Of a DNA stretch of 64,000 nt, positions 27,079 through 59,782 are shown piece after piece. Numbering within the stretch: the first letter of the stretch is position 1; each line of letters begins with the position of its first letter. Both the position numbers and the translations under genes were made by a program. Source of the DNA: Xanthobacteraceae bacterium (lineage in GTDB: Bacteria > Pseudomonadota > Alphaproteobacteria > Rhizobiales > Xanthobacteraceae); assembly GCA_019635635.1 (NCBI GenBank), contig JAHBZB010000001.1, forward strand, positions 1,178,001 to 1,242,000, read 5' to 3'. A model generated the notes under the pieces. That model made no database searches. It saw only the letters and a list, made by a program, of their open reading frames with translations, and was not told where the DNA came from.

Positions 27079-28074
27079 TCAACCTGGTGCTGCCGGCACC
27101 GCTACTAAGTTCTCGGCATTTAGGTTTATCTCCCCAGTCCACCGATAGGCAGTTAGATAGCCGGCACGTGCTACACTGAAATCGAGGCAAGCGGCGTCTG
27201 GAGACGTCAGTACCGGCGTGCCGCGTAGCCAATAATGTCCAAAGAAAACAGGTTTCGACGCGCCATATGCGTAGTCGGATCCAATTGGTGTGTCGGGTAG
27301 AACATCTGGATCAACTCCTATGGCTGCCAACCGAAACGTCGTCGCGGCGCCATCCCACCATTTTATGCGTGTTTCCCGCCGCTCATGACCGTCTTTGTCA
27401 AAGAAAGAAACGTTCGGCGGAAGTGCCACCTCGGGACCTTTCAGTACGATCTCCGCCGCGGTTGATGCAGCGGAACCACGCGCATTTGCCGCCAGGAACC
27501 CCGCTTTGGTGAAGCAATTTTGAGGGTCAAGATGTGGGCGAAGTAGATCAAGTGATTGCTGATGCCAGCATGCGTGGACGATCCTAAGTCCATTTAGGTC
27601 TAGGTAGACCGGTAGCGTTCGGAACCAATCTATCGCTGAACGATAGGCTGTAGAACCTTCCTTGAGCTGGTCAAGGAATGCACGATGTTGAGTCTGGTTC
27701 TTTGACGTGTGCGGTCGAAGAAAGCCACCATTGCCGTCGCTTGTGGCCCAACCGATCGCGTTGAATTCGTGATTACCGAGTACAGCCAACGCTGAACCCT
27801 TCGAGCACATGTTTCTGGCGATTGCTAATGCTTCAGACTGTTGCGGGCCTCTATCAATAAAATCACCGACAAAAATAATCTGGCGCGAAGGGTGCGAATA
27901 TCCATCACCGCTATCGGTGTAACCGAGCCGGGCAAGAAGGCGCTCTAACGCATCGGCATGGCCGTGAATGTCACCAACGATGTCGAAGCCGCTGCCCTTG
28001 GTTACCAATGTAGAATCCATTTGCTGTTGAATAAATTTGGCCGACAATAACGTCAGTTTTTCACCCGAGGTCAT
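27079..28074 (-). CDS. Calcineurin-like metallophosphatase
   Basis: A 331-residue phosphoesterase of the PPP/ApaH-like type. Metal-site motifs appear in order: DIVGDIHGH (about 31), VGDFIDRG (about 69), LGNHEFNAIG (about 98), RIVHACWH (about 163) and FGHYWLRG (about 276). Candidates for its substrate are phosphoproteins or dinucleoside polyphosphates. ATG 28074 leaves only 23 bases to the divergent HTH gene, so the internal ATG 28020 may be the real start. A truncated copy lies at 19006-19547. The fixed divergent pairing with the HTH gene in both copies suggests linked function. Confidence 0.85.
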   Translation of the reverse strand: MTSGEKLTLLSAKFIQQQMDSTLVTKGSGFDIVGDIHGHADALERLLARLGYTDSGDGYSHPSRQIIFVGDFIDRGPQQSEALAIARNMCSKGSALAVLGNHEFNAIGWATSDGNGGFLRPHTSKNQTQHRAFLDQLKEGSTAYRSAIDWFRTLPVYLDLNGLRIVHACWHQQSLDLLRPHLDPQNCFTKAGFLAANARGSAASTAAEIVLKGPEVALPPNVSFFDKDGHERRETRIKWWDGAATTFRLAAIGVDPDVLPDTPIGSDYAYGASKPVFFGHYWLRGTPVLTSPDAACLDFSVARAGYLTAYRWTGEINLNAENLVAVPAAPG

Positions 28075-28097
28075 TGCAGGTCGAAGAGGTTAGAGCC

Positions 28098-29261
28098 ATG
28101 GAAAGGGAATTCACGAGATTCGAACTATACGAACTTGTCTGGTCTCAGCCAATGACGGCACTTTCAGCTGAGGCCGGCATTTCCAACGTTGCGCTGGCCA
28201 AGCACTGCAAGAAACTTAACGTCCCTGTCCCTGGTCGCGGGTACTGGGCGCGAATGGCTGCAGGGCAACCAATCGATAAGCCGGTGTTGCCTCTAAGGTT
28301 TCCCGGTGCATCGGATCGCACCGGCGGTGACCCTTATCGCACCTATTCGTTCAACAGGGTCGAGGAGTATGCAGAAATAGCGATCCCTCCAGAACCGATC
28401 TTCGAAGAAGAAATATCTGCGTTACGGCAACGTGTTTCGAAACTGGTCGGAAGAGTTCGCCACGCGCGTGATTTCCAATCAGTGCATCCACTAGTCGCAA
28501 AACATCTAGAACACGATGAGGAGCGACGAGCGGATTACAAACGGTCACCAATAAGTCTGTATCAACCGAAGTACGATGGTGGCATCGAGCGAAGGCGGCT
28601 GTTGATTATCAACACGCTATTTCAGGCTGCCGCGCGTCTTGGGTGTCGGGCGTCGATGAGCACATCAAGGTACGTAGACTACTATGGAAGCGATAGGCAG
28701 TTAGGTTTGAAGATAGCCGAATCTTACGTGGGATTTACCATCGAGCCCCTGAAATCGAAGAATAAAGGTCGAGAATCCCTGTCATTGTCTTTTACTCGCT
28801 CGTCGACAGGTGACGAGAAATCGCAGTGGTCTGACGAAGATGGTCGGCTGGAGAGCAAGCTAACCGAAATCCTGATTGAGATGCTCGTCACCGCCGAAGT
28901 GTCGTATCGCCGAAGTCTCGTCGCGAAGCGGCAATGGCTGATCGACCGCAAGTCCGAAGCGCAAACTGAACTCGTTCGACGTCAGCTCCAGGCCGACCGG
29001 GAGGCGAGGGAGCGCGAGCAGAGGCTCGCGAGGGAGCGGGTCGGTCGCTTGCTGACACAGGCGAAAATGATTGAGAGGGCTGATCGAATCCGAACCTACG
29101 CTACGGCAATTGTCTCACGCGCTGATCGAATTGGGGCCTCGGCTGAGCAGGTTGCGCAATGGGCCGCTTGGGCTCGGCAAGAGGCCGACCGAATTGACCC
29201 GAGCCGGAATGGCACGTTGGAAGCCGAGATCGCGGAGTTACCGAAGGCGACTGCTACTTAG
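28098..29261 (+). CDS. HTH-domain protein paired with metallophosphatase
   Basis: ATG 28098 follows GAGGTTAGAG; the TTG frame at 28074 overlaps the divergent gene. The product has 387 residues. The N-terminus ELYELVWSQPMTALSAEAGI, then ISNVALAKHCKKLNVP and GRGYWARM, is a helix-turn-helix followed by a conserved 'P-x-RGYW' turn. A long charged helix (about residues 290-340, QADREAREREQRLARER) precedes the C-terminal QVAQWAAWARQEADRIDP. It is not a standard named regulator. Its tail survives as a remnant at 19548-19721. Binding to the shared promoter is a reasonable guess. Confidence 0.6.
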   Translation: MEREFTRFELYELVWSQPMTALSAEAGISNVALAKHCKKLNVPVPGRGYWARMAAGQPIDKPVLPLRFPGASDRTGGDPYRTYSFNRVEEYAEIAIPPEPIFEEEISALRQRVSKLVGRVRHARDFQSVHPLVAKHLEHDEERRADYKRSPISLYQPKYDGGIERRRLLIINTLFQAAARLGCRASMSTSRYVDYYGSDRQLGLKIAESYVGFTIEPLKSKNKGRESLSLSFTRSSTGDEKSQWSDEDGRLESKLTEILIEMLVTAEVSYRRSLVAKRQWLIDRKSEAQTELVRRQLQADREAREREQRLARERVGRLLTQAKMIERADRIRTYATAIVSRADRIGASAEQVAQWAAWARQEADRIDPSRNGTLEAEIAELPKATAT

Positions 29262-29461: not shown

Positions 29462-30322
29462 ATGGTTGCAAGAGTAATAGACGGCTTAGCTGCGGCAAAA
29501 GAAATCCGCCAGGAATGCAAAGCGCGTGTGAATAAGCTCGTGCAAAGCGGAATACGTCCAGGCCTTGCTGTTATTTTGGTGGGCAACGACCCGGCATCGG
29601 CAGTTTACGTAAAGAATAAAATCCGCGCCTGCGATGAGGTCGGCGTCCATTCACTTCAATTCAAGTTTCCCTCCGATATCGCAGAAGAAGCAGTTCTTAA
29701 GAAGATCGAGGAACTTAACAGAGACCCGCAGGTGCACGGGATTCTCGTGCAACTGCCGCTGCCACGCCATTTCGACCTATCTCGCATTTTGCTGACAATC
29801 TCGCCGGAAAAGGATGTCGACGGCTTCCATTTATACAATGTCGGCGGGCTGGTCGTAGGCAATACGGTATTTCCACCTTGCACGCCATTTGGTGTGCTGA
29901 AGCTTCTCCAGTCCAACAATATCAAGATTGAAGGCCAGAATGTCGTCGTGGTTGGGGCGAGTAACATCGTCGGCAAGCCCATGGCGCTGATGCTGATGCA
30001 GCAAGACGCGACAGTGTGTATTTGTCACGCGAAGACGCGGGATCTGGCTCAGTTTACTATCCTCGCGGACATCCTGGTGGTCGCAGCAGGCAGGCCAAAT
30101 CTGATTGTGCCGCAGATGGTGAAGACCGGAGCCGTCGTAATTGACGTCGGAATTAACCGGCTCTCGTCAGGCGAACTCGTAGGCGATGTAGACTTTGCCG
30201 GTGTTAGCGAGAAGGCTTCGTACATTACTCCGGTGCCCGGCGGGGTTGGTCCGATGACCGTCACGATGCTGATTTACAATACCGTTGCTTCGGCTGAGCG
30301 AGTCTTCGCCTCCGGCGAGTAA
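29462..30322 (+). CDS. folD: Bifunctional methylene-THF dehydrogenase/cyclohydrolase
   Basis: A 286-residue FolD of normal length that interconverts 5,10-methylene-, methenyl- and 10-formyl-tetrahydrofolate in the cytoplasm with NADP. Visible motifs are YVKNKIRACDEVG (YxxxK with the catalytic Lys, about residue 52), GILVQLPLPRH, EKDVDGFH, VGASNIVGKPMALML (Rossmann loop) and PVPGGVGPMTVTML. GTP-like additions are absent. It opens a locus with MTHFR-like and PanB-like genes, so it is likely a pathway-dedicated copy. Whether another folD exists cannot be told from this window. Confidence 0.95.
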   Translation: MVARVIDGLAAAKEIRQECKARVNKLVQSGIRPGLAVILVGNDPASAVYVKNKIRACDEVGVHSLQFKFPSDIAEEAVLKKIEELNRDPQVHGILVQLPLPRHFDLSRILLTISPEKDVDGFHLYNVGGLVVGNTVFPPCTPFGVLKLLQSNNIKIEGQNVVVVGASNIVGKPMALMLMQQDATVCICHAKTRDLAQFTILADILVVAAGRPNLIVPQMVKTGAVVIDVGINRLSSGELVGDVDFAGVSEKASYITPVPGGVGPMTVTMLIYNTVASAERVFASGE

Positions 30323-30324: not shown

Positions 30325-30359
30325 TCTCAAATTTGGAATAGTTGATTCCAAATTTGAGA
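30325..30359. promoter_or_regulatory. Perfect 15-bp inverted repeat (activator site or terminator)
   Basis: TCTCAAATTTGGAAT (30325-30339) and ATTCCAAATTTGAGA (30345-30359) are exact complements around a five-base spacer. It begins three bases after the folD stop and its centre lies about 90 bases upstream of the -12 element at 30436. That distance suits the enhancer site of a sigma-54 activator. No clear T-run follows, which argues against a rho-independent terminator, though folD mRNA stabilisation is possible. Confidence 0.65.
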
Positions 30360-30421: not shown

Positions 30422-30436
30422 TGGCACGCTCATTGC
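30422..30436 (+). promoter_or_regulatory. Sigma-54 promoter of the MTHFR-like operon
   Basis: TGGCACGCTCATTGC matches the -24/-12 consensus TGGCACG-N4-TTGC at every defined position, with GG and GC ten bases apart. Transcription should begin near 30448. This decides the MTHFR-like start: codons before about 30448 cannot be used, so ATG 30476 or 30509 is the real one. The gene for a sigma-54 activator ends the same operon. Confidence 0.8.
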
Positions 30437-30475
30437 CAAACAAGTCTGGAGTTGAAGGCAGGACAACGGGAATCA

Positions 30476-31375
30476 ATGCGAGGAAGTGCGAGAGGTTGGC
30501 GGTCAGCGATGCAGCGCCTGCTGATCGAGCCAAGTTTTGAAATTGCTCCGGGGCAGGAGCGGGACGTCGGCGCGCTTTCGACGAAGTTGCACCCGGATAC
30601 GAAATTATTCGTTGCGAGTATCGCAGGCAAACCGCTCAGTGCGATGACCGATACGCTGGAGCACCTCGGCCAGAGCGGTTACGAGTTGGTGCCGCATATC
30701 GCTGCGCGCAACTTCCCATCACGACAAAGCTTCTTCGATTTCTGCGGAGTGCTCGGCCGGCATAATGTTCAAAATGCGTTTGTCATCGGCGGCGATGCTT
30801 CGCAAGCCGCCGGAACGTATCATGACGCTGAGGAATTGTTGCGCGACATCGGACTCCTTGCGGACGCCGGCATCGAAAACATTGGCTTTGCTAGTTACCC
30901 TGAGGGGCATCCCAGCATTTCAGATGCTGAACTCGATGAAGCATTGGTCCGCAAAGTGCAGATCGCGCGGGAGAACGGCATGAAGCCTTTTGTCGTGACG
31001 CAGTTCTGTTTCGAAGCCGAGCCGATTATCGCTTGGGAGCGGAGATCTCGCGAACTGTTAGTCCGTCCCGTTCCCGTCGTAGTCGGCATGCCAGGTGTTA
31101 CATCGATCAAGCAGTTGCTGCGTTATGCGAAAGTGTGCGGCGTGCAGGCGTCGGCAGCGTTTCTCACGGGTCACGCAGCAACGATGATCAATCTGTTGCG
31201 GCCATGGTCGCCGCATAAGCTCGTCTCCGAGATTGGCGGGGCGGTAGCGGAAGATATGGATTCGCGAATTGAGCGATTTCATTTCTTTCCGTTCGGGGCT
31301 CTTGACCGGACAGTGACATGGACCTCGAATATGCTTCTATCGAGCGATGCTAAAAGTGGGAGCGAGAACGCGTGA
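30476..31375 (+). CDS. Methylenetetrahydrofolate reductase-like protein
   Basis: The start is ATG 30476 (or 30509), downstream of the sigma-54 promoter. About 300 residues with the MetF/MTHFR TIM-barrel pattern: YELVPHIAARNFPSR, FVIGGDASQAAGTYH (FAD/folate loop), IGFASYPEGHPSIS, FVVTQFCFEAEPIIAW and VVVGMPGVTSIKQLLRY. The usual N-terminal catalytic-Glu motif (F-P-P-K) is not obvious, so the protein is a divergent relative that may use another flavin chemistry or act on a modified C1-folate. The stop overlaps the PanB-like start (GTGA). Confidence 0.8.
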   Translation: MRGSARGWRSAMQRLLIEPSFEIAPGQERDVGALSTKLHPDTKLFVASIAGKPLSAMTDTLEHLGQSGYELVPHIAARNFPSRQSFFDFCGVLGRHNVQNAFVIGGDASQAAGTYHDAEELLRDIGLLADAGIENIGFASYPEGHPSISDAELDEALVRKVQIARENGMKPFVVTQFCFEAEPIIAWERRSRELLVRPVPVVVGMPGVTSIKQLLRYAKVCGVQASAAFLTGHAATMINLLRPWSPHKLVSEIGGAVAEDMDSRIERFHFFPFGALDRTVTWTSNMLLSSDAKSGSENA

Positions 31376-32238
31376 ATATCGGTGAAGAAAAAAGAAAAAA
31401 AGTCACTATCAGCCAGCTTCGGAAGATGAAGCATGAGAAACGACCGATTGTCGCAATTGGCGTCTATGAATCCGTTACGGCATCGATTGCCGATCAATTT
31501 CCCGTGCAGATTTTCATGACCGGACCGTCCGGTCCGATGTCGTTATTCGGACACACTAATCCGACGGCCATTACGATCGAAGAACAGTTGTGCACTCTTC
31601 GCGCTGTATCGCGTGTGACTAAGTACGCGCTGATCAACGCGCACATGCCGTTTCTGTCGTATCAAACTTCTCCGCGCGACGCCGTGCTCAATGCGGGCAG
31701 GCTCATTGCGGAAGGCGGCGCCGATACCGTGAAGTGCGACGCAACGCCGGCGCTGTCCCAAAATATCCGCGCGATTGTCGATTCTGGAATTCCGGTGATT
31801 GCGCACCTTGGCGTGCAGGCGCTACGCCGCGTCGAGCAAAGCGGCTACGGGCTCAAAGGGGCGACTGCAGAACAGGCAAAGCGTCTGATCGAAGATGCGC
31901 GCGCGCTGGCGGAGACCGGCGTGTTTGCGCTGTTGCTCGAACATGTCTGCGCCGAGGTCGTTGAAATTCTTGCAGGTGAACTGCCAATCCCGGTGATCAG
32001 TCTCGGCTCAGGCGGCAGAGGTGACGGCGTCTCAATCGTGGCAGGCGATTTGCTGAACTACAGCGCGTTCAAGCGTCCCGCGCACGCCGGACAGATGGTG
32101 GATCTGATGGCGGACATCGAGAAAAGCTTGTCGAGTTACGCAGCGGCAGTTCGCGACAATAGCTATCCGCAAGCGGAAGCCGCACCGCAAATGCAAGAAG
32201 AAGAATACAGAAAATTCATAGCGAGTCACGCCAACTAA
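31372..32238 (+). CDS. PanB-like protein A (divergent hydroxymethyltransferase)
   Basis: A 288-residue protein aligned by eye to ketopantoate hydroxymethyltransferase: GPSGPMSLFGHTNPTAITIE, INAHMPFLSYQTSP, GADTVKCDA, IPVIAHLGVQ, VFALLLEHVC and IPVISLGSG. PanB transfers a hydroxymethyl group from methylene-THF to 2-oxoisovalerate. Here the Mg ligands of E. coli PanB appear changed (Asp45 to Pro, Asp84 to His, Glu114 to Asp), while the Lys112 and Glu181 positions are kept. It is therefore unlikely to be the pantothenate enzyme. GTG start overlaps the MTHFR-like stop. A related protein B is at the far end of the importer genes. Confidence 0.8.
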   Translation: MNIGEEKRKKVTISQLRKMKHEKRPIVAIGVYESVTASIADQFPVQIFMTGPSGPMSLFGHTNPTAITIEEQLCTLRAVSRVTKYALINAHMPFLSYQTSPRDAVLNAGRLIAEGGADTVKCDATPALSQNIRAIVDSGIPVIAHLGVQALRRVEQSGYGLKGATAEQAKRLIEDARALAETGVFALLLEHVCAEVVEILAGELPIPVISLGSGGRGDGVSIVAGDLLNYSAFKRPAHAGQMVDLMADIEKSLSSYAAAVRDNSYPQAEAAPQMQEEEYRKFIASHAN

Positions 32239-32255
32239 ACGCGAAGGAGAGGGAA

Positions 32256-33560
32256 ATGAAAAAGCATAGAACGCATATTCAACGCCGCGAATTTTTGTTG
32301 TCGACCGCTTCAGTCGTTGCAGCAACGGGCATGCCGTTGTTGCAATCGATCAGCGCTCTTGCGCAGTCCGCGAACGCCACTGCCTGGGGATATCCACTTC
32401 CATATCGTCAGGTTAGCGAAAAATCGCTCACCTGGCTTAAGGAAAAAGGGTGGCTACCGCTCTCGGTTGGCTTCTTCGCCGACCTTCCGGGCTACGCGGG
32501 TGCCTACGGAGTGATCCGCGAGATGAATCTTCTCGGCAAGCGCGGTCTGCCGGCGAAGTTCACAAGTTTCCTCTCCGGTCCGCCGATTCTGGAGGCATTC
32601 ATCGGCGGGCAGACGCAGGCTACCGGCTATGGCGACCTTCCGTTTTGGACGACCGTTGCACGCAACAATCCTGCGGTTGCTTACGGTATGACTGCCGTCA
32701 ACTACGAGGCCGCGATGCTGGTGCGTCCGGATTCGCCGCTGAAATCGATCGAGGACATCAAGAAGCAGGATAAGCCGGTAGTGATCGGCACGCTGCTGGG
32801 TTCTTTCCTTGAATTCTATATCTCGGCCGCTGCGGCGTATTGGGGTCTGGAGGTAGGCAAGCATTATACGCTTGCGGGAATGACGCTGCGCGAGGCACAG
32901 TTCCTGCCGCGCGGAGTGGATGCGGTAGTCAGCTATGATCCCTTCGTAAGCGTGACGCTCGACAAGAAGATCGGCCGCAAGATCGACGATGCGTTCCCTT
33001 ACTACTTCAATAAGGGCTATGACTTTGTTCGCGCCGAAATCCATCAGAACGCACCAGATGTCGTGCAAGCGCTTGCCGACGCGATGTTGGAAGCAACCCT
33101 CTACACGCGACACGATCTCGACGGCGCAGTGAAGATATATCACAACGATCCGCGCGTCGCGACGGCTTACACGTTTGATCTGTTCAAGGATCAGACCAAG
33201 AAATACGTGACGCTTTACAAGCCTTCGTTCCGTTACGTGCACGCCGATTTCTGGGCGGCGCAGGACGTTGTCGTCGCGAAATCGCAATTCGAAAAGAAGC
33301 GAATGCCTCGCGAGCTTTCGATTGACGAAATGAAAGCTGCATTCGTTCCCCAATATATGGCGAACGCGCTTACTCATGCCGGGTTCAGCGTGCCGAAGAC
33401 GCCCGTGTTTCTACCGGAAGGCTGGGCCGGTACCGTCGGCAAACCGCCTTACCCGAAGTACCTGAATTTTGCGTCGATGTCGGGGCCGCAGCCGTTTCCT
33501 GAAAAGGGTGATCTCACGCGGCCGTGGACGTTTGGTGGAAAGACTTACAATCCGGGCTAG
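32256..33560 (+). CDS. ABC importer substrate-binding protein (NMT1/SsuA-like, Tat-exported)
   Basis: ATG 32256 follows AAGGAGAGGGAA. A Tat signal (QRREFLLSTASVVAATG) ends near ALAQS, about residue 37. The 434-residue protein is longer than typical SsuA/TauA proteins (about 320). The core pattern is PLSVGFFADLPGYAGAY, GGQTQATGYGDLPFWT, SIEDIKKQDKPVVIGT and RGVDAVVSYDPFVS. It delivers a small ligand to the two permeases that follow. The ligand cannot be read from the sequence; sulfonate, amine or pyrimidine-like compounds are known for the superfamily. Confidence 0.85.
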   Translation: MKKHRTHIQRREFLLSTASVVAATGMPLLQSISALAQSANATAWGYPLPYRQVSEKSLTWLKEKGWLPLSVGFFADLPGYAGAYGVIREMNLLGKRGLPAKFTSFLSGPPILEAFIGGQTQATGYGDLPFWTTVARNNPAVAYGMTAVNYEAAMLVRPDSPLKSIEDIKKQDKPVVIGTLLGSFLEFYISAAAAYWGLEVGKHYTLAGMTLREAQFLPRGVDAVVSYDPFVSVTLDKKIGRKIDDAFPYYFNKGYDFVRAEIHQNAPDVVQALADAMLEATLYTRHDLDGAVKIYHNDPRVATAYTFDLFKDQTKKYVTLYKPSFRYVHADFWAAQDVVVAKSQFEKKRMPRELSIDEMKAAFVPQYMANALTHAGFSVPKTPVFLPEGWAGTVGKPPYPKYLNFASMSGPQPFPEKGDLTRPWTFGGKTYNPG

Positions 33561-33562
33561 TA

Positions 33563-34333
33563 ATGGGTAGCAAGCTTCTCCGATTGATTTCGTCGTTCTC
33601 GTTGCTCGCCGCGATTCTCATTGGCTGGGAAATCGTAGCGGGCACGATCTACCCGAAATACAACGCAACTTCGGTGAATATCTTTCCGCCGCCTTCGGCG
33701 GTGCTCGGTATTTTCTGGGACCTCCTGAGGAGTGGCGAACTCGTCACGCATACGCTTGCGTCAATGGCGCGCGTGGCGGTCGGCTTCGGTATCGCGACAT
33801 TGATCGCCGTGCCGCTCGGGCTTTCGATGGGAGCGTGGCCAGCATGGGGCGAGCAGATGCGAGTCGTAATCGAGGTCTTGCGGCCAATCCCGCCGTTCGC
33901 CTGGATTCCATTCGGCCTGCTTTGGTTTGGTGTCGGTCCTGAGCAAACGGTGTTCGTGATCGTTATCTCCTCGATATTCCCTATTCTGATGAACACCGTG
34001 GCTGGCGTCGAACAGGTCGAGCCTGTGCTTAAGCGCTCCGCTCTATCGCTTGGCGCGAGCAAGTTGCGTCTTTTCATCAATGTCGTGCTGCCACGCGCAT
34101 TGCCGCAAATCATAGTAGGGCTTCGGATCGGGCTCGGCTTTGCATGGATGGTGCTCGTTGCATCTGAGCTAATCGGTTCGACCGCTGGTCTCGGCTATCT
34201 AATTCTAGATTCACGGAATCTTGGCCTGCCGAGTCTTGCATTCATGGGAATGTTCGTCATCGGCATCATCGGGTATCTGCTCGATGCCGGAATGCGTTGG
34301 CTAGAGCGTGTGTTGTTGCCATGGAACGCATAG
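33563..34333 (+). CDS. ABC importer permease 1
   Basis: ATG 33563 is two bases after the binding-protein stop. The 256-residue protein has about six membrane segments and the SsuC/TauC family loop EVLRPIPPFAWIPFGLLWFG, followed by the EAA-type coupling helix (LKRSALSLGASKLRLFINVVLPRALP). Its last 13 bases overlap permease 2. The pair would form a heterodimer in the cytoplasmic membrane. Confidence 0.9.
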   Translation: MGSKLLRLISSFSLLAAILIGWEIVAGTIYPKYNATSVNIFPPPSAVLGIFWDLLRSGELVTHTLASMARVAVGFGIATLIAVPLGLSMGAWPAWGEQMRVVIEVLRPIPPFAWIPFGLLWFGVGPEQTVFVIVISSIFPILMNTVAGVEQVEPVLKRSALSLGASKLRLFINVVLPRALPQIIVGLRIGLGFAWMVLVASELIGSTAGLGYLILDSRNLGLPSLAFMGMFVIGIIGYLLDAGMRWLERVLLPWNA

Positions 34334-35085
34334 ATCTCGTTGGCCGCGTGCGGCCATTTCTGCTGCTCGGGTTTTTGATCATTTTGTGGGAGCTGTTCTC
34401 ACGGTTTGTCGTGCCGCATTACGACCCATCTGGGCTGTCGCTGCCGCCGCCTTCCGCCGGTATCGCCGATGCAATAAATCTCATGAAGCAGGGGTATCTG
34501 CATCAACACGTGATCGCGAGTGCGCGGAGGGTCTATCTCGGGTTTGCGCTTGCCGCAGTCATCGGAATTCCGATCGGAATTTTGATGGGCATGTTCGATT
34601 TGGCGCGGCGCCAACTCAATCCGGTCGTCGGCATCTTACGGCCCATTCCGCCGGTCGCGTGGATTCCAATTACACTTCTGTGGTTCGGGGTCACCGACAA
34701 ACAACAGTATTTCATCATTTTCATCGGCACGATTTTTCCGCTGATCCTGCATGCCGTCGCGGGCGTGCGGACCGTGGATCCGGTGCTGATCCGCGCAGCT
34801 CGCAGTCTAGGCGCGGACTCGGGCGCTATGTTCCGTCTGCTTCTAACAGCATCGTTGCCGATGATCTTCCTCGGCATTCGAATTGCCCTTGGCTTGGGCT
34901 GGTTCATCATCGTGGCGTCCGAGATGGTTTCCGCATCAACCGGCCTCGGATTTTTGATTACAGAAGCCCGGACCGCGATGCTTACTGAGCGCATGTATGT
35001 CGGCATGTTTGCAATCGGTTTCATTGGCTACGCGCAAGATCGGCTGCTCGTCTGGCTTGAAAGAAAAATAATCCCATGGAAATGA
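34321..35085 (+). CDS. ABC importer permease 2
   Basis: ATG 34321 lies within the end of permease 1. The 254-residue protein again shows GILRPIPPVAWIPITLLWFG and the coupling loop AARSLGADSGAMFRLLLTASLP. Strong similarity to permease 1 suggests a duplicated subunit; a two-permease arrangement is less usual in this family, where homodimers are common. The stop overlaps the ATPase start. Confidence 0.9.
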   Translation: MERIDLVGRVRPFLLLGFLIILWELFSRFVVPHYDPSGLSLPPPSAGIADAINLMKQGYLHQHVIASARRVYLGFALAAVIGIPIGILMGMFDLARRQLNPVVGILRPIPPVAWIPITLLWFGVTDKQQYFIIFIGTIFPLILHAVAGVRTVDPVLIRAARSLGADSGAMFRLLLTASLPMIFLGIRIALGLGWFIIVASEMVSASTGLGFLITEARTAMLTERMYVGMFAIGFIGYAQDRLLVWLERKIIPWK

Positions 35086-35867
35086 CCGCAAAAGCAGCGC
35101 TCGTTGTCGACAACGTCACCAAAGAATATGAGATGGCGCGTTCTGGCACGCGTATTGCAGCACTTGAGGGCCTATCGTTCACCGTTCGCGAAGGAGAGTT
35201 TTTCGTCGTGCTCGGCCCGAGCGGTAGCGGAAAGACTACGCTACTGAATCTTATCGCCGGGTTTGAATTGCCGACCAAGGGTACGTTGACGGTGAACGGC
35301 GCGCCGATCGAACAACCGGGTTGGCAACGCGCGGTTGTCTTCCAGGAGCATGGCTTGTTTCCTTGGCTAACAGCTGCAGAGAATATTGAGTTCGGCCTCC
35401 GTATGAAAAAGCTGCCGAAAGGCGAGCGCAGAGATCTGGTTTCGAAATATATCGAAATTGTCGGTCTGAAGGGTTCGGAAGATAAATATCCGAAAGAACT
35501 TTCTGGAGGCATGAAGCAGCGTATTGGTATCGCGCGAGCACTCGTGGTCGATTCGGATATCGTCATCATGGACGAGCCACTGGGTTCGCTCGACGCGCAG
35601 ACGCGGACTGAAATGCAGGACGAGCTATTGCGCATTCTGCACAAGGAGAAAAAGAAAACCGTGCTTTTCGTTACGCACTCCATCGAGGAGGCACTGAAGC
35701 TTGCGGACTCGATTGTCGTAATGTCTGAGCGCCCGGGAAGGGTGAAAGAGTTGTTTCGTGTCGATAGCCCAAGACCGCGTGATGTGTTGACCGATCCAAG
35801 GATGATCGATCTGAACGTTAAGCTCCATGCGCTGCTCTACCGCTCGCAAACGCCGAAGGCCTCGTGA
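35076..35867 (+). CDS. ABC importer ATP-binding protein
   Basis: A 263-residue ATPase of the SsuB/TauB type: Walker A LGPSGSGKTTLLN (about 45), Q-loop AVVFQEHGLFPWLTAAENIE, signature KELSGGMKQRIGIARAL, Walker B IVIMDEPLGSLDAQTR and H-loop VLFVTHSIEEA. The start ATG 35076, or ATG 35082 in an ATGA overlap with permease 2, is tightly coupled. It energises the importer of the C1 locus. Confidence 0.95.
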   Translation: MEMTAKAALVVDNVTKEYEMARSGTRIAALEGLSFTVREGEFFVVLGPSGSGKTTLLNLIAGFELPTKGTLTVNGAPIEQPGWQRAVVFQEHGLFPWLTAAENIEFGLRMKKLPKGERRDLVSKYIEIVGLKGSEDKYPKELSGGMKQRIGIARALVVDSDIVIMDEPLGSLDAQTRTEMQDELLRILHKEKKKTVLFVTHSIEEALKLADSIVVMSERPGRVKELFRVDSPRPRDVLTDPRMIDLNVKLHALLYRSQTPKAS

Positions 35868-36721
35868 TGACCGAACGCAAGAAAGTTACGATCCAGCAGC
35901 TTCAGAAGATGAAGGCAGAAGGAACGCGCATCTGTGCGCTCGGAGTTTACGATACGCCGATGGCGGTTGCCGCCGACCGGATTGGGTTCGAGCTGTTCGT
36001 GATCGGAAATTCGGGGCCGATGTCGTTGCTAGGCTATACCGAGTCAACCGCAGTCCGGTCGGAAGACCTCTTGTTCATGTGCAAAGCGGTTAAGCGCGCT
36101 CAACCGAAAGCAATGATTGTCGCGACCCTGCCTTACATGAGTTACTTTGGCTCGAAGGATCGCGCGATCGATACTGCTGCGCAATTCGTTCGCGAAGGCG
36201 CTGATGCCGTGCAATGCCACGCCGACCGGAACACCAGCGAGAATATTGAAGTAATGACGCGTGCTGGCGTGCCGGTGCTCGCCCATATCGGACTACGCTC
36301 AGTCCGAAAGACGGAACAAAGCGGATTTCGTGTGCAGGGTCGGTCGGCAACGGCTGCAGACGAAATCTTCGAGGACGCGCTTGCGATGGAAAAAGCAGGC
36401 GCTTTCGCTGTGGTTGCCGAGCTCGTTCCGACACAGCTAATGGGCTTTCTTCGAAAGAGGCTAAGCCTTCCGGTGCTTAGCTTAGGCTCCGGTCCGGATG
36501 CTGACGGCATCTATCAAGTGAGCGCCGACGTCGTGGGCTTCAGCGTTTTTCCGCGCCCGAAAACGGCAGCGCAATTCGGTAATGTACGGCCTCTTATCGG
36601 AACTGCGATCGAAAAGTTCTGCAGCGCTGTTCAGGCACGGGAATTTCCTGCGAAAGCAGATGAGCGCTGCATGCCGGTTGCTGAGAAAGAAGCGCTCTTC
36701 CAAGAGCTGAAGCGAGCCTAG
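35867..36721 (+). CDS. PanB-like protein B (divergent hydroxymethyltransferase)
   Basis: ATG 35867 shares a TGATG junction with the ATPase stop. The 285-residue protein keeps the PanB fold pattern: FVIGNSGPMSLLGYTESTAV, VATLPYMSYFGSK, GADAVQCHAD, VPVLAHIGLRSVRKTEQSGF, FAVVAELVPTQ and LPVLSLGSG. By comparison with E. coli PanB the metal ligands read Asp45 to Asn, Asp84 to Thr, Glu114 to His, and Lys112 to Gln; Glu181 is kept. It differs from protein A at these positions, so A and B might combine in one complex or have distinct substrates. Confidence 0.8.
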   Translation: MTERKKVTIQQLQKMKAEGTRICALGVYDTPMAVAADRIGFELFVIGNSGPMSLLGYTESTAVRSEDLLFMCKAVKRAQPKAMIVATLPYMSYFGSKDRAIDTAAQFVREGADAVQCHADRNTSENIEVMTRAGVPVLAHIGLRSVRKTEQSGFRVQGRSATAADEIFEDALAMEKAGAFAVVAELVPTQLMGFLRKRLSLPVLSLGSGPDADGIYQVSADVVGFSVFPRPKTAAQFGNVRPLIGTAIEKFCSAVQAREFPAKADERCMPVAEKEALFQELKRA

Positions 36722-36756: not shown

Positions 36757-37479
36757 ATGGAGCTCATTGCACTTGCGGCACTGGCAACGATGGCTGCTGG
36801 TGCGATCCGTACATCCGTCGGCGTTGGCGCAGGAATCGCGCTGACGGCAAGCCTTCTTCAAATTTTCGATTTGCAGACGACGCTGGCGGTCATGGCGCTT
36901 TTGCAGATCGCGTTCGGCATATCGGCAATCTCACACTATTGGCGAAAGTGGGACAGCACGTTGACCGCGCGTTTGCTTATTGCTGCGATTGCCGGAGTTG
37001 CAGTCGGAACGATGCTGATCTGGGTCTTGCCGGTTGGCTATGTGAAAAAAATTCTCGGCACGCTAATTGTTGCCTGCGGACTGATCGAGCTTCTGAAGTT
37101 GTGGCGTGGCTCAACCGAGGTTTCAGTCTGGGCGCGCAACGTCTGGTTTATTGGCTTTGGAAGCGGAGTTTCGGGAGGTCTTGTCAATGCGAGTGGGGCG
37201 GTGCTCGCGCTTTACTTAAAAGGCCTCCGCCTAACTCACGGCGTGTACCTCGGCACCTTATCTGCGGTCGTTCTGGGGCACGATCTCTTCCGATTGGTGC
37301 TCTATGCGGCACTCGATCTACTGCCACCCGCGGCTTTTAAGACCGCCGCAATCCTCACTCCATTTGCGATTGTAGGCGGTTGGCTCGGCACGTGGCTACA
37401 ATCCAGGATTTCCGAACGATACTTGAGTTTCATCGTGTTGAGTTTGGTAATTCTATTGGGCATTATTCTATTCCTGTAG
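36757..37479 (+). CDS. TauE/SafE family permease
   Basis: A 240-residue, very hydrophobic protein with about eight membrane segments and the duplicated TauE/SafE pattern: GAIRTSVGVGAGIALTASLL near the N-terminus and FGSGVSGGLVNASGAVLALY near the middle. Family members move sulfite, sulfoacetate or related organic anions, mostly outwards. In this operon it may export a pathway by-product. A 35-base gap separates it from PanB-like B, and the regulator gene follows by 22 bases. Confidence 0.85.
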   Translation: MELIALAALATMAAGAIRTSVGVGAGIALTASLLQIFDLQTTLAVMALLQIAFGISAISHYWRKWDSTLTARLLIAAIAGVAVGTMLIWVLPVGYVKKILGTLIVACGLIELLKLWRGSTEVSVWARNVWFIGFGSGVSGGLVNASGAVLALYLKGLRLTHGVYLGTLSAVVLGHDLFRLVLYAALDLLPPAAFKTAAILTPFAIVGGWLGTWLQSRISERYLSFIVLSLVILLGIILFL

Positions 37480-37501: not shown

Positions 37502-39436
37502 ATGAGCCGGTATCGCTTCGCGTTTGTTTCCAATTCGCGAGAAGTGAGTGAAGCCATTTTGGCGCACTCCGATCCCGCTAGTGAATCCATTACAGTCCGG
37601 CTCGCGTCGATGGAACGCGCCGTCCCGGTAGCGCGGCAGCTCCTCGACGAAGGCATCGAAGTCATTATTGGCGGCGGTGGCACTGGAAACGTGCTGGCCG
37701 AAAGTATCGGCCAGGCGGTCGTGAAGATTGATCGTAGCCCGGCCTATTTGATGCCGGCGCTCATGGAAGCGAGGGCGCACACCAAGAAGATCGCAGTTAC
37801 CGTTTTCTCTCAGCCGATCGAAGGTTTGGCAACCCTTGCGAAGTATCTGGATATCGAATTGCACCAGGTCGTGTTTTCTTCCACCGACGAACTGGAGACC
37901 GGCATTCGCAAGAGCATTGCTGAAGGTGCCGAGATCGTCGTTGGAGGCGGCATCTGCAAACAGATCGCCGATCGGTACGGCGCGCCGACTGTCGTAGTCA
38001 TCCCGGAACGAGAAAATGTCCTTCAGACGCTCTACGAGGCGCGCGCAGTTGCTGGGTCGCGCCGGGCAGAAAAACGCAAGCTCGAAGAGCTGAATACGAT
38101 TCTGCAAACGATCCGCGAAGGGATCATTGTAGTCGACAGCCTGCGACGCGTTACGGTGTTTAATCCAGCGGCAGCCGATATTTTAAGGTCCGTACTTTCA
38201 CGCAAGCAAGCCGAAGCTGCGGTCGGAAAAAAACTACCGGCGCCGCTTGATGTATTCGGTCTGTCGCGCGTGATCGAAACCGGGCTCGGTGAAAGCGACC
38301 GGATACACCGCCTCGGTGATCTCAATCTCGTCGTTACCAGCCAGCCAATCATGGTCGAGGACAGGCTCGTCGGTGTAATTTGCAGTATTCGCGAGGCATC
38401 CAGGATTCAGGATCTGGAACGCAAGGTCCGCGAAGACATGTATCGCCGCGGCTTCGTGGCAAAGCATACGTTCGAAGAGATGGTGGCGGCCAGCCCTTCA
38501 CTTGGCGCACTTGCCCGGGAAGGAGCGCGCTACGCTAAATCCGATGCCGCCGTTCTAATCCAAGGTGAGACCGGAACCGGCAAAGAATTGCTCGCGCAGT
38601 CGATTCATAATGCGAGCAAGCGTTCCAGCCAGCCGTTTCTCGCTATCAACTGCTCGGCGTTGCCCGAAACACTCCTTGAAAGCGAACTGTTCGGTTACGA
38701 AGAAGGCTCATTCACTGGTGCGCGCCGCGGCGGAAAAGTCGGACTGTTCGAAATGGCGCACAAGGGCACGCTGTTTCTGGACGAGATCGCCGATATCTCT
38801 CCGAGCTTACAGGTCCGGCTCCTTCGTGCGATCGAGCGAAATGAAGTCATGCGCGTGGGCGGCGACCGGATTGTTTCAGTTGACGTCCGCATTATCAGCT
38901 CGTCTCAGGTCGATTTGTACCGGGCAGGGCTCGCCGGAGAGTTCCGGCCGGACCTGTACTTTCGTTTGTCTACCTTGATGCTCAATTTGCCGGCATTGCG
39001 CGAACGCGTAAGCGATATCCCGGTTCTGCTGGAGAAATTATTCGCGAAAGCTGGAAGGTCAGATTTCGAGGAAAGCGCTGATCTGCAGACGGCCTTGAGC
39101 CAATACGACTGGCCCGGCAATGTCCGAGAACTCGAAGCAATTGTGCAGACTTATGCGGCACTTCACACCGACGAACCCTTTGATGCTTCCACCTTTAATG
39201 CTGTTTTCCAATCCCGAAGCCGACGTCAGTCGTCCGGCATTGAGGCGGGTAACCCTAGCGTGCCATCAATCGGTCTTGACGGATCACTCAAGAAACAGAT
39301 TTCCTTGCTCGAACAGGAAATAATCAGCCGCACGCTAAGCGAGTGCGCCAACAACCGTTCTGAAGCGGCGCGGCGTCTGGGAATCAGCATTAATTCGTTA
39401 TGGCGAAAATCTCGTCAGCAACATCTTGACTCTTAA
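37502..39436 (+). CDS. PrpR-type sigma-54-dependent activator
   Basis: A 644-residue enhancer-binding protein. Residues 1-180 are a PrpR_N-like sensor (EVIIGGGGTGNVLAE, AEIVVGGGICKQIAD). A PAS-like segment follows (about 200-300, EGIIVVDSLRRVTVFNPAA), then the AAA+ domain: Walker A QGETGTGKELLAQ (about 353), FGYEEGSFTGARRGGK (GAFTGA loop with Ser in place of Ala), LFLDEIADISPSLQ (about 424) and an arginine-finger region. A Fis-type HTH (SEAARRLGISINSLWRK) ends it. It should sense a pathway metabolite and fire the two sigma-54 promoters upstream. It is co-directional with the operon it probably controls. Confidence 0.92.
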   Translation: MSRYRFAFVSNSREVSEAILAHSDPASESITVRLASMERAVPVARQLLDEGIEVIIGGGGTGNVLAESIGQAVVKIDRSPAYLMPALMEARAHTKKIAVTVFSQPIEGLATLAKYLDIELHQVVFSSTDELETGIRKSIAEGAEIVVGGGICKQIADRYGAPTVVVIPERENVLQTLYEARAVAGSRRAEKRKLEELNTILQTIREGIIVVDSLRRVTVFNPAAADILRSVLSRKQAEAAVGKKLPAPLDVFGLSRVIETGLGESDRIHRLGDLNLVVTSQPIMVEDRLVGVICSIREASRIQDLERKVREDMYRRGFVAKHTFEEMVAASPSLGALAREGARYAKSDAAVLIQGETGTGKELLAQSIHNASKRSSQPFLAINCSALPETLLESELFGYEEGSFTGARRGGKVGLFEMAHKGTLFLDEIADISPSLQVRLLRAIERNEVMRVGGDRIVSVDVRIISSSQVDLYRAGLAGEFRPDLYFRLSTLMLNLPALRERVSDIPVLLEKLFAKAGRSDFEESADLQTALSQYDWPGNVRELEAIVQTYAALHTDEPFDASTFNAVFQSRSRRQSSGIEAGNPSVPSIGLDGSLKKQISLLEQEIISRTLSECANNRSEAARRLGISINSLWRKSRQQHLDS

Positions 39437-40038: not shown

Positions 40039-40545
40039 ATGGCCGAAGAAGGTGCGATCGATAAGAAGAATGCGCTGTGGCGCTTTTCCTTGAACTATTA
40101 TTCTACGCCCGATGTCCCCGACATATGCCTCTTTCTGCAAGACAATTACAATGTTGATGTGAATATTCTGCTTTTAATTTTGTGGCTTGCCGCGTCGGGT
40201 AAGTCTTTATCCGTTGATGAGATAGCCGAGATCGATCGGCATGTAAAACACTGGCGCGATACCGTTATCGTGCCACTTCGAATGATACGGCGAAGTATCC
40301 TCAAGCCGGAAGAAGCATCTTCTCGATTGGCGTTCCGTGCAAGTTTAAAGAAGCTAGAACTCGAGTCCGAACGCATTGAGCAAGATGATCTGTTCTCACA
40401 GTTCAGAACCCATACAGGAGTTGCCCCTGATCCGGTCGCAGCGAGGAAAGGCCTTGACGCCTATGCCAGTTATCTTGGCTCTTCGTTCCAGCACGATGCG
40501 GTTGCACGGCTGCTGTCCATCTATGAAGCGTTTCGTACGATCTGA
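40039..40545 (+). CDS. TIGR02444 family protein
   Basis: ATG 40039 opens a 168-residue protein matching the TIGR02444/DUF2390 pattern: ALWRFSLNYYSTPDVPDICL, LQDNYNVDVNILLLILWLAA and HWRDTVIVPLRMIRR. The family is common in alpha- and gammaproteobacteria; its function is unknown. The last 25 bases overlap the convergent UbiX gene. It is a typical chromosomal gene and suggests that core DNA begins here. Confidence 0.75.
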   Translation: MAEEGAIDKKNALWRFSLNYYSTPDVPDICLFLQDNYNVDVNILLLILWLAASGKSLSVDEIAEIDRHVKHWRDTVIVPLRMIRRSILKPEEASSRLAFRASLKKLELESERIEQDDLFSQFRTHTGVAPDPVAARKGLDAYASYLGSSFQHDAVARLLSIYEAFRTI

Positions 40546-41123
40546 ATACGCTGCGCTTCCTGTTCTTTCCAACGCTTAACAATACCCAGGTCGATGTCGA
40601 AATTGTCAAGCAGCCGGCCAACGGTGTGATTTATGATATCGTCCAACGTAGCCGGACGCGAATAGAATGCCGGAACGATCGGCGAAATGACGGCTCCAAG
40701 ATCCGAAAGCGTTGCCATCGTGCGTAGATGGCCTGAATGCAGGGGGGTTTCACGTACGGCGAGTACGAGCTTCCGCCGTTCCTTAAGAACAACGTCGGCC
40801 GCACGACTTACAAGCGAACTGGTAACGCCGGTCGCGATCTCGCTCATGGTTCGCATGGAGCAGGGGCAGATAAGCATGCCCATGGTTCGAAACGATCCGG
40901 AAGATATGGAAGCGCCGATGTCGCCAACCGCGTGATATTCGGTTGCCAGTTCGCGCAGCCTTTTAGGGTGCAGATCGGTTTCATAGGCGATAGTTAGCTC
41001 TCCGGCCTTGCTGACGACCAGATGAGTTTCGATGTCGGTTTCGCGCAGCATTTCCAATGCGCGAATTCCGTAAATTACGCCGGACGCACCGGTGACGGCG
41101 ATAACAAGACGTTTCGAAATCAT
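40521..41123 (-). CDS. ubiX: Flavin prenyltransferase (UbiX/Pad1 type)
   Basis: A 200-residue UbiX-type enzyme that makes prenylated FMN, the cofactor of UbiD decarboxylases. Visible: RLVIAVTGASGVIYGIRALE (FMN loop), THLVVSKAGELTIAYE, ISSGSFRTMGMLICPCSMRT and KLVLAVRETPLHSGHLRTMA. Length and motifs are normal. It is second in an operon with the MarR regulator (25 bases apart) and lies opposite the UbiD operon, so it probably serves that pathway rather than ubiquinone synthesis. Confidence 0.9.
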   Translation of the reverse strand: MISKRLVIAVTGASGVIYGIRALEMLRETDIETHLVVSKAGELTIAYETDLHPKRLRELATEYHAVGDIGASISSGSFRTMGMLICPCSMRTMSEIATGVTSSLVSRAADVVLKERRKLVLAVRETPLHSGHLRTMATLSDLGAVISPIVPAFYSRPATLDDIINHTVGRLLDNFDIDLGIVKRWKEQEAQRIQIVRNAS

Positions 41124-41148
41124 TGCGCTGTCTCCTGGAAAAGCTCCC

Positions 41149-41652
41149 CTATCTGCTGGGCTGCCATTTGTTCACTTTATCCACGGCGGTGCGAAGTTTT
41201 TTCATCATGTGCACAAGGGCGATTTTTTCTTCGGCAGTCAGCACAGATAATAGAAGCTGTTCGCGTTCCAGCGCGATCTCGATCATCTTGCCATGCCGGG
41301 ACATGCCCAGTCTGGAAAGGGCAAGCGGCCTGACCTTGCCGTTCGGCTTCGTATGCGTGAACTTCACGAGCTTCAGTTCTTCGAGGCGGCGAAGGCTCCG
41401 GCTTACCACCGCCTTGTCTATCCCGAGCAGCGCGCAAATCTGATGCGCGCCAACATTTGGTTGCGCTGCAAGAACGCTCATCACGCGCCACTCTGTGATT
41501 CCGATGCCGAACAGTTCGCGATAGATTTTCCCCGCGCCATAAGAAAGCTTGTTGGAAATATACGTAAAGAAATACGGAATATGCCGCTCTGAATCGAGCA
41601 CGATAGTGCCCGATACTTGCTTCGCGCCCGGCAATTCATCTGCTTGCGCCAT
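41149..41652 (-). CDS. MarR-family regulator
   Basis: A 167-residue winged-helix regulator. The HTH is GAHQICALLGIDKAVVSRSL (about residues 80-99), with wing LVKFTHTKPNGKVRPLALS and dimer helices at both ends. It heads the UbiX operon and is divergent from the importer-UbiD operon, with two matched TAGTTG/CAACTA palindromes in the 209-base gap. It most likely represses both directions until an aromatic or other pathway acid binds. Confidence 0.9.
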   Translation of the reverse strand: MAQADELPGAKQVSGTIVLDSERHIPYFFTYISNKLSYGAGKIYRELFGIGITEWRVMSVLAAQPNVGAHQICALLGIDKAVVSRSLRRLEELKLVKFTHTKPNGKVRPLALSRLGMSRHGKMIEIALEREQLLLSVLTAEEKIALVHMMKKLRTAVDKVNKWQPSR

Positions 41653-41716
41653 AAAGGCGAACTCCCAAAGTTTCTTTGTTACCGCGCATCATAATGCAAA
41701 AGATTCAGCCCGGCCA

Positions 41717-41766
41717 TAGTTGACAAAGCAACTAAGACCGGAAGATTATAGTTGCGAAGGCAACTA
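41717..41766. promoter_or_regulatory. Two MarR-type operators over the importer promoter
   Basis: Site 1 is TAGTTGACAAAGCAACTA (41717-41734) and site 2 TAGTTGCGAAGGCAACTA (41749-41766). Both are TAGTTG-N6-CAACTA, with centres 32 bases apart, about three helix turns. A TTGACA (41720-41725) and a GATTAT (41744-41749) spaced by 18 bases form a plausible promoter for the + strand operon, so site 1 covers the -35 and site 2 the start point. Binding by the adjacent MarR protein is inferred. Confidence 0.75.
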
Positions 41767-41805
41767 AAGCGGCCATGAAGAGCCGTGGTTGATGGAGGAG
41801 AGAAA

Positions 41806-41865
41806 ATGGGCACTGTAAGTGCCTCGAGCCGCAATTTTGCGGCAACCGAGGAAGTGCGGTCGTGA
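41806..41865 (+). CDS. Possible 19-codon leader peptide
   Basis: ATG 41806 follows the strong site GGAGGAGAGAAA and reads MGTVSASSRNFAATEEVRS before TGA 41863-41865. The stop overlaps the GTG start of the ATPase (GTGA). It may be a coupling leader. A one-base error could instead make it the true N-terminus of the ATPase, since the ATPase has only a modest ribosome site (GAGGAAG). Confidence 0.4.
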   Translation: MGTVSASSRNFAATEEVRS

Positions 41866-42653
41866 GGATCTCGGTCTCTAATGTAGACAAGAGATTCAGT
41901 GTTCGCGGTCGTGAAGTGAACGCCCTCAACAAGGCGAGTCTTGAGGTCCGGGACGCCGAGTTCCTGACGCTGCTTGGGCCGTCGGGCTGCGGGAAATCGA
42001 CCTTGCTGCAGATTATTGCAGGGCTTGAGCCGGCGACGGGCGGCAAGGTGAGCTTTGAAGGAAGACGTACTGCATCCGGGCCGGTGACCACAATGGTGTG
42101 GCAGCGCTATGCTTTGTTTCCGTGGCGGACGATCAAGCATAACGTCGCCTTCGGTTGCGAAATGCGTGGCATGCCTCGCGGCGAGCGGATGGCGCGCGCG
42201 CAGCACTTCATCGAAAATGTAGGACTGATCGGCTTCGAGGAAGCCTTTCCCCATGAACTGTCGGGCGGCATGCAGCAGCGCGTTGCGCTTGCGCGCGCGC
42301 TCTGCAACGACCCCGAAATTCTTCTGATGGACGAGCCGCTCGCCGCGCTAGATGCCCAAACGCGCACGGTGATGCAGGTTGAACTCCTGCGCATCTGGGA
42401 TCAGTACAAGAAGACAGTCGTTTATGTGACGCATTCGATCGACGAGGCGGTTCTGCTCGGCGATCGCATCGCCATCATGAGCGCGCGGCCCGGGCGTATC
42501 AAGGAAGTCATTCCGGTCACGCTACCCCGGCCACGCACGCTCGATATGCTTACCACCCCGGAGTTTCACAAACTCGCAGATCACGCCTGGAATTCGATCA
42601 AGGAAGAATTCGACGTCGCGTACGGCGCCTCTAAGGAGGGGCAATCGCAATGA
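41862..42653 (+). CDS. ABC importer ATP-binding protein (UbiD locus)
   Basis: A 263-residue SsuB/TauB-type ATPase from GTG 41862: Walker A LGPSGCGKSTLLQ (about 38), Q-loop MVWQRYALFPWRTI, signature HELSGGMQQRVALARAL, Walker B ILLMDEPLAALDAQTR, H-loop VVYVTHSIDEAV. First full gene of a six-gene operon. The stop overlaps the permease start (ATGA). Confidence 0.95.
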   Translation: MRISVSNVDKRFSVRGREVNALNKASLEVRDAEFLTLLGPSGCGKSTLLQIIAGLEPATGGKVSFEGRRTASGPVTTMVWQRYALFPWRTIKHNVAFGCEMRGMPRGERMARAQHFIENVGLIGFEEAFPHELSGGMQQRVALARALCNDPEILLMDEPLAALDAQTRTVMQVELLRIWDQYKKTVVYVTHSIDEAVLLGDRIAIMSARPGRIKEVIPVTLPRPRTLDMLTTPEFHKLADHAWNSIKEEFDVAYGASKEGQSQ

Positions 42654-43432
42654 CGATCTCCTCCGGTAAACTCAGGGCGTTCGCGTCGTCAGTACTCTAC
42701 AATGTCGGCCCCATCGTTGCGGTTCTGCTACTTTGGGAGCTATCGGTGCGAAGCGGGCTTATCCGGGCTTTCTTTCTGCCGCCTGTGTCCGACGTTCTTG
42801 TCCAGCTTTGGGAAAGCATCACCAGCGGTCAGTTGCCAGCTGCATTCCTCGTTACGACGAAGCGAATGCTGATCGGCTACATCATCGGAGCTGGAAGCGC
42901 CATTGTGTTCGGACTTTTGATCGGCATATTCCGTCCGCTGAGAAACTTTTTCTATCCGATCGTCGCGGCAGTCTATCCGTTGCCAAAGATCGCAATGTTG
43001 TCGATCTTCATTGTTGTCTTTGGGGTTGGCGATCCGCCGATCATTGCCAGCGTCGCAATCAGCTCTTTCTTTCCGGTGCTGCTGAATACGCTGACCGGCC
43101 TGCGCTCGATCGATCCGATATTGATCAAGGCGGCCGAGGATTTGGGCGCGAATCGTTTCCAAGTAACGACGAAGGTCGTGCTGCCGGGGTCCTTGCCGAT
43201 GATCTTTACGGGCTTGCGTCAGAGCTCCGCGGTCGCGCTCATCGTCGTCGTCGCCGTCGAAATGTATATCGGCCAGAGCGGCGTCGGCTATCTGCTCTCT
43301 TGGGCAACCGAATTTTTCAAGATCAATCTGCTTTACGCCAATCTCTTTGCGATCGGCATTTTCGGAATTCTCGTATTCCGGCTCGTCGATTTCATCGAGT
43401 ACATCGCTCTGCCCTGGGCGCGCGAGCGATGA
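42650..43432 (+). CDS. ABC importer permease (UbiD locus)
   Basis: A 260-residue membrane protein of the SsuC/TauC type with six segments: AVYPLPKIAMLSIFIVVFGV is the family loop, and AAEDLGANRFQVTTKVVLPG the coupling helix. It starts in an ATGA overlap with the ATPase. As the only permease here, it should act as a homodimer. Confidence 0.92.
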   Translation: MTISSGKLRAFASSVLYNVGPIVAVLLLWELSVRSGLIRAFFLPPVSDVLVQLWESITSGQLPAAFLVTTKRMLIGYIIGAGSAIVFGLLIGIFRPLRNFFYPIVAAVYPLPKIAMLSIFIVVFGVGDPPIIASVAISSFFPVLLNTLTGLRSIDPILIKAAEDLGANRFQVTTKVVLPGSLPMIFTGLRQSSAVALIVVVAVEMYIGQSGVGYLLSWATEFFKINLLYANLFAIGIFGILVFRLVDFIEYIALPWARER

Positions 43433-43470
43433 ATAATAAGCCAAAACGTTTCTAAAGGGAGGAAGTGACG

Positions 43471-44487: not shown

Positions 44488-44494
44488 ACGTTGC

Positions 44495-44520: not shown

Positions 44521-44545
44521 AATCTTTTTCTCGAAGGAAGTAAAC

Positions 44546-59780: not shown

Positions 59781-59782
59781 CG

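Follow-up and report, generated by a model that had tools for sequence, protein, structure and literature searches.

The proteins A and B, two PanB-like products of one operon in a 64,000-nucleotide stretch of a Xanthobacteraceae genome (GCA_019635635.1, contig JAHBZB010000001.1, positions 1,178,001 to 1,242,000; hereafter the window), were found to be full-length proteins of the PanB fold that lack PanB's D45/D84/E114 metal ligand set. On the strength of sequence and gene context, it is tentatively proposed that A and B have been repurposed as tetrahydrofolate (THF)-dependent one-carbon (C1), probably methyl, transferases that serve catabolism and would work without the Mg2+ site of PanB. They would probably remove a C1 unit from an imported compound instead of making vitamin B5.

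Both open reading frames (ORFs) were intact and their products were covered end to end by PF02548 (Pantoate_transf; 223 bits for A and 233 bits for B), in agreement with the initial annotation of this DNA, which had described them as full length. With the NCBIfam PanB equivalog TIGR00222, they scored 182.4 and 191.7 bits, respectively, both under the cut-off of 207.55, and their identity to E. coli PanB was about 28-30%. At the positions of E. coli PanB D45/S46/D84/K112/E114/H136/E181, A carries P/S/H/K/D/H/E in the alignment and B carries N/S/T/Q/H/H/E (S46 apart, these are P52, H91, K121, D123, H145 and E190 of A and N49, T88, Q117, H119, H141 and E186 of B), while all 40 of the true PanB rows carried the D/D/E metal ligands. 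The loss of the canonical ligands to P/H/D and N/T/H, with the catalytic Glu181 retained in both proteins and Lys112 in A only, was exactly as first read by eye; His136 was likewise present in both. Displacement of the Asp/Asp/Glu ligands to shifted positions was ruled out by HMMER alignments of A and B to solved PanBs, which were gapless around the 45, 84, 112/114 and 181 positions, and by a tight structural match; in both proteins, the roughly 4 residues to either side of the 45 and 84 positions included no Asp or Glu. AlphaFold models of A and B (predicted local distance difference test, pLDDT, 88.8 and 89.6) matched the solved structures 1oy0, 1m3u and 3vav in Foldseek, with TM-scores of 0.91 and 0.94 to 1oy0, the M. 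tuberculosis PanB. As the B model superposed on 1oy0 at 1.5 Å over 247 residues, there is no hidden register shift in B.

A and B are not the housekeeping PanB of their host. A third PF02548 gene (348 bits), encoding the full D/S/D/K/E/H/E set, was located on another contig of the same genome (G000, 3.37 Mb), and pantothenate synthesis for the host was rejected as the main role of A and B on account of this intact true PanB. Because the host also carries a separate canonical MetF outside the operon, the operon is taken to be a dedicated gene set.

Relatives of A and B were sought in about 1,660 genomes, many of them fragmented metagenome-assembled genomes (MAGs), and by a single pattern scan across the GTDB species set, genes in the relatives being called with a codon-usage-based script; they were found in Xanthobacteraceae and Betaproteobacteria. 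In a maximum-likelihood tree, A, B and 13 relatives formed one clade (support 100/99). Its sister was a ligand-intact D-T/D/K/E clade (support 100/100), and both stood apart from true PanB; the A/B proteins were thus sister to, and not inside, the PanB-like clade of methanesulfonate (msm) clusters. The same topology was recovered from an alignment stripped of position 113 and the ligand columns and with several long branches removed. Within the A/B clade, the ligand sets at 45/84/114 followed the sub-lines, namely N/H/E (n=9), P/H/D in the orthologues of A, N/T/H in those of B, and S/N/E with His112 (n=2), while Glu181 and His136 were invariant throughout. Cys113, a position that is aliphatic in true PanB, was found in 13/15 rows of the A/B clade and 17/17 of the sister clade, and Gly148 was replaced by Ser in all 15 A/B-clade rows.

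Orthologues of A and B from another genus (G1313; 79% and 77% identity) retained the ligand signatures and gave dN values (nonsynonymous divergence) of 0.146 and 0.154, with dS (synonymous divergence) at 2.4 for B and at saturation for A. Strong purifying selection acts on both proteins. At about 78% identity, the agreement of a single orthologue pair at all seven positions is weak evidence when taken alone, and the weight comes from the whole clade. As the signatures were kept in orthologues, within one well-supported clade and under strong purifying selection, the ligand loss is more than chance, and pseudogene decay was ruled out by the intact ORFs together with that selection. The suggestion in the initial annotation of a new family, as opposed to random decay, was therefore supported, and the family tree set A and B apart from true PanB.

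The distribution of the operon was also considered. A MAG of the same genus (G023, L062) carried the same operon, with proteins 99.7-100% identical, and the A/B clade was not found in the 6 other sampled genomes of this genus, so that the operon is patchy there. All matches in a plasmid collection were below 60% identity, the top rows being about 34% and annotated panB. Ligand change in the PanB fold is not unique to the window, since, nearer to true PanB, the ligands were altered in two more groups: D-A/S/E/E, which was seen in microcompartment loci only among the loci examined, and D-S/C/K/Q, mostly beside branched-chain-type ATP-binding cassette (ABC) genes. Members of the D/C/K/Q clade (positions 45/84/112/114) were noted at L023, L024, L027, L028, L032, L050, L051, L052 and L085, where branched-chain-type ABC transporter and GntR-like genes mostly adjoin, with FolD in L125.

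The genes of the operon run in one direction from folD to a sigma-54 activator gene (Table 1), and those from metF through B overlap or leave short gaps. The inverted repeat formed by CTCAAATTTGGAAT and ATTCCAAATTTGAG occurred once in the window and in none of 100 shuffles, about 65 nt upstream of the sigma-54-like element TGGCACGCTCATTGCC; matches as good as the latter also arise by chance in the window, and both elements are hints at consensus level only.

Table 1. Genes and candidate control elements of the PanB-like operon (positions in the window)
Feature	Position	Strand	Basis and remarks
FolD, bifunctional methylene-THF dehydrogenase/cyclohydrolase	29462..30322	+	NCBIfam PRK14189, 439.7 bits against cut-off 421
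Perfect 14-bp inverted repeat CTCAAATTTGGAAT-5-ATTCCAAATTTGAG	30326..30358		Candidate activator-binding site or folD terminator
Sigma-54-like promoter element TGGCACGCTCATTGCC	30422..30437	+	71 nt upstream of metF-like start; 1 consensus mismatch
MetF-like methylenetetrahydrofolate reductase, 7xg9 type, 288 aa	30509..31375	+	PF02219; PDB 7xg9 best match
PanB-like A, 288 aa	31372..32238	+	PF02548; 4-nt overlap with metF
Periplasmic substrate-binding protein, aliphatic-sulfonate (SsuA) family	32256..33560	+	TIGR01728 2.6e-14, under that model's cut-off
ABC permease 1, taurine/sulfonate/nitrate type	33563..34333	+	PF00528; start by gene call; ORF opens 33524
ABC permease 2	34321..35085	+	ORF opens 34297; 84% identity to G1313 operon copy
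ABC ATPase, taurine/sulfonate/nitrate type	35076..35867	+	PF00005
PanB-like B, 284-285 aa	35864..36721	+	PF02548; start GTG 35864 or ATG 35867; overlaps ATPase gene
TauE/SafE-family exporter	36757..37479	+	PF01925 2.9e-22
PrpR_N sigma-54-dependent activator, probable operon regulator	37502..39436	+	PF06506 and PF00158

In PanB, Mg2+ enolises an alpha-keto acid, which then accepts a C1 unit from methylene-THF. Given the loss of the Mg2+ ligands, the preserved Glu/His pocket and the adjoining genes for FolD, methylenetetrahydrofolate reductase (MTHFR) and an importer, we infer that these proteins most likely transfer C1 units to THF from a compound taken up by the cell. The ABC importer would bring in a small, probably anionic, C1-bearing compound, and A and/or B, most likely acting at the methyl level, would move its C1 unit onto THF through the retained Glu181/His136 pocket. 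No enolisation would take place in such a reaction, and PanB's metal would for that reason not be needed. The operon MetF would then oxidise 5-methyl-THF to methylene-THF and FolD would take this to 10-formyl-THF, while the anion that is left would be exported by the TauE-type protein, and expression of the operon would be turned on by the PrpR-like sigma-54 activator.

The operon MetF contained the MTHFR motifs SFE, PH, GGD, YPEGHP and TQF, and among solved structures it matched 7xg9, probably the MTHFR of Sphingobium SYK-6, with an E value of 3.8e-39 (next match 8e-9). An MTHFR subfamily favouring CH3-THF oxidation, exemplified by Sphingobium SYK-6 with its demethylase LigM, has been described in a review (PMC13001107), and the operon metF resembles this methyl-THF-oxidising type. 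A third MTHFR-like gene of the host (G000:C3:213199-213666; L175:9989-10873) was 37% identical to the operon MetF. An MTHFR homologue adjoined 8 of 10 independent A/B-clade loci compared with 1 of 15 sister-clade loci, a difference (Fisher p = 3e-4) that is based on small counts and is uncorrected for kinship or phylogeny. These neighbours came from two subfamilies, 7xg9-like (here, L124 and L134) and DUF5981-fused (L060/L041, L061, L130, L131 and L133), and in one genome (G1277) the genes for MTHFR, a PanB-like protein, PurU and FolD stood in a row. It is because MTHFR recurs beside the A/B clade that the methyl level is favoured.

Several points weigh against this proposal. In the G1313 operon, A and B are intact and metF is reduced to a C-terminal remnant beside A (L132:6360-6557, preceding A; 30 residues, 77% identical), and the folD/metF side is missing from that 8.3-kb contig. 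No MTHFR was found beside the G1232 copy within the 19 kb examined. The MTHFR could equally well act as a reductase or serve folate metabolism in general, and B, which also lacks Lys112, may be non-catalytic. Furthermore, no member of the PanB/PEP-mutase fold is known to be a THF methyltransferase.

It was also considered whether A and/or B act at the methylene level, loading THF with a hydroxymethyl group or with formaldehyde to give methylene-THF, with sulfite exported by TauE; hydroxymethanesulfonate, the adduct of formaldehyde and sulfite, would be one such source. This would be the reverse of PanB's normal C1 chemistry, and it would suit the sulfonate-type importer and TauE-type exporter of the operon. 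It would also fit the sister clade, which is probably methylene-level and was located in methanesulfonate clusters with GcvT-like (at nearly all loci), TauE, sulfite-oxidation and FolD genes. At L042 and L047, the sister-clade gene was accompanied by MsmA with a Rieske spacer of 26 residues, the length typical of methanesulfonate monooxygenase (PMC5068391), and in the methanesulfonate-degrading Filomicrobium sp. Y a PanB-like/GcvT/TauE/SoxCD set lies next to the msm genes, its PanB-like member being labelled as C1-moiety transfer (PMC4433239). However, a dedicated MTHFR would be superfluous at this level, the operon has no sulfite oxidation or GcvT-like gene, and MsmA was not found in 8 genomes with the A/B clade but without the sister clade (G000, G023, G1232, G1289, G1313, G1341, G1277 and G582; threshold 1e-40 for G000 and G023), so that this explanation is considered rather doubtful. 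The same 8 genomes gave no support for a methanesulfonate monooxygenase pathway involving A and B. Separately, MsmA homologues at L055:5735-6829, L056:5570-6661 and L058:5560-6669 shared about 71% identity with MsmA across the catalytic part, lacked the Rieske C-x-H/C-xx-H motif and adjoined PanB-like and Fhs genes.

A second explanation is that the metal site has been rebuilt, with two His and one acid holding Zn, Fe, Mn or Co instead of Mg. A (H84, D114, H136), the nine N/H/E relatives (H84/E114/H136) and the two S/N/H/E relatives (H112/E114/H136) do have exactly two His and a single Asp/Glu at positions 84/112/114/136. B, however, has no such set (T84, Q112, H114, H136), and His136 is common to all PanBs too, which makes a rebuilt site unlikely. 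A low probability is likewise given to the possibility that catalysis is left to one of the pair, more likely A, with the other (B) serving as a folate sensor or non-catalytic partner within a hetero-oligomer or regulatory pair. B deviates most at the active-site positions, having lost Lys112 as well, and two genera have preserved A together with B on either side of the same transporter; the searched genomes G147, G583, G1277 and G1341, on the other hand, each yielded only one clade member. The hetero-oligomer with shared sites that was raised in the initial annotation is consequently not supported as a general rule, the conserved pairing of A and B notwithstanding. Both the rebuilt site and the catalytic/non-catalytic pair can overlap with the proposed methyl transfer to THF. 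That A and B are ordinary ketopantoate-making PanBs with tolerated substitutions is highly improbable, for in spite of the full-length PF02548 match and shared fold, all three ligand positions are altered, the scores fall below the equivalog cut-off, a true PanB is encoded elsewhere in the genome and A and B belong to a separate clade.

Proteins of the N/H/E and D-A/S/E/E types flanked bacterial microcompartment (BMC) shell genes (BMC-H/BMC-P), aldehyde dehydrogenase and FolB in G1232, G1289, G1341, G1313 and Lacisediminimonas (G582). MTHFR-DUF5981 and thymidylate synthase genes were usual in these five genomes, and a sulfatase gene was present in 4/5. The loci concerned (L129, L130 at 6381-13449, L131, L133 and L061) contained PF00936/PF03319 shell genes, aldehyde dehydrogenase, FolB, two small unassigned proteins and 2-3 PanB-like proteins, with MTHFR-DUF5981, ThyA and sulfatase also present in most copies, and represent a folate-flavoured microcompartment locus of Xanthobacteraceae and Lacisediminimonas. 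No PF00936 shell gene was found in G000 or G023. Neither folate nor methyltransferase cargo is mentioned in the text of the 2021 BMC catalogue, and a literature search for BMCs with PanB, FolB or MTHFR cargo gave nothing relevant, an absence that is no proof of novelty. If methyl transfer to THF without PanB's metal site is what this PanB-fold family carries out, it would amount to a folate-dependent demethylase unrelated to GcvT/LigM, housed in part in an undescribed BMC type; this broader suggestion is somewhat doubtful.

Other gene sets were noted in the window. Positions 40521-48186, with genes for UbiX, MarR, a NitT-type ABC importer, UbiD, SDR and aldehyde dehydrogenase, resemble a separate aromatic-acid decarboxylation cluster beside the PanB-like operon, and positions 56504-63011, with LysR, NitT-type importer, isochorismatase, Rid-like and alpha/beta-hydrolase genes, are like a pyrimidine- or amide-degradation set. 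To the left of the operon, a phosphatase/helix-turn-helix gene pair was partly duplicated and diverged (18978-19797 and 27079-29261); its pieces showed 81-87% DNA identity to the second site (27079-29261) as present in G023, and the G+C content of the region was below that of the operon.

Databases label proteins of the A/B type 'PanB', so a separate C1 enzyme family would lie hidden under a vitamin B5 annotation. If the proposal is true, the active site of a well-known Mg-dependent barrel has been changed so that the protein serves as a folate-dependent C1 transferase. Bacteria of soil and groundwater would then use a methylated or hydroxymethylated nutrient that is as yet unknown, and a new microcompartment pathway would be implied as well. 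The series of sites D/D/E, N/H/E, P/H/D, N/T/H and S/N/E also offers ready material on metal loss or swap in a metal enzyme.

Compared with the PanBs of E. coli (1m3u) and M. tuberculosis (1oy0), A and B share the TIM-barrel fold, Glu181 and His136; unlike them, they lack D45/D84/E114 (and, in B, Lys112), their clade has an EQSG loop motif and Cys113, and their operon holds metF, folD and an importer in place of pantothenate genes. The msm-cluster PanB-like proteins have Cys113 and folate and TauE neighbours in common with the A/B clade, but are D/D/K/E at the active site and are found with GcvT-like neighbours, often with msmA and rarely with MTHFR. BMC loci with aldehyde dehydrogenase are linked to A and B through the relatives that adjoin their shell genes, whereas the genome of the window has no such gene. 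A functional parallel may be drawn with the THF-dependent LigM-MetF-LigH O-demethylation in Sphingobium SYK-6, in which a MetF of the methyl-THF-oxidising kind likewise belongs to a catabolic gene set that supplies the folate pool (PMC13001107, PMC12997858). The operon MetF gene overlaps that of the putative C1-transferring A. No GcvT-like match was obtained in positions 21001-47000 of the window, and the operon lacks a gene for formate-THF ligase. LigM, however, is a member of the GcvT family, and in the A/B operon it is PanB-fold proteins that would take the place of the demethylase.

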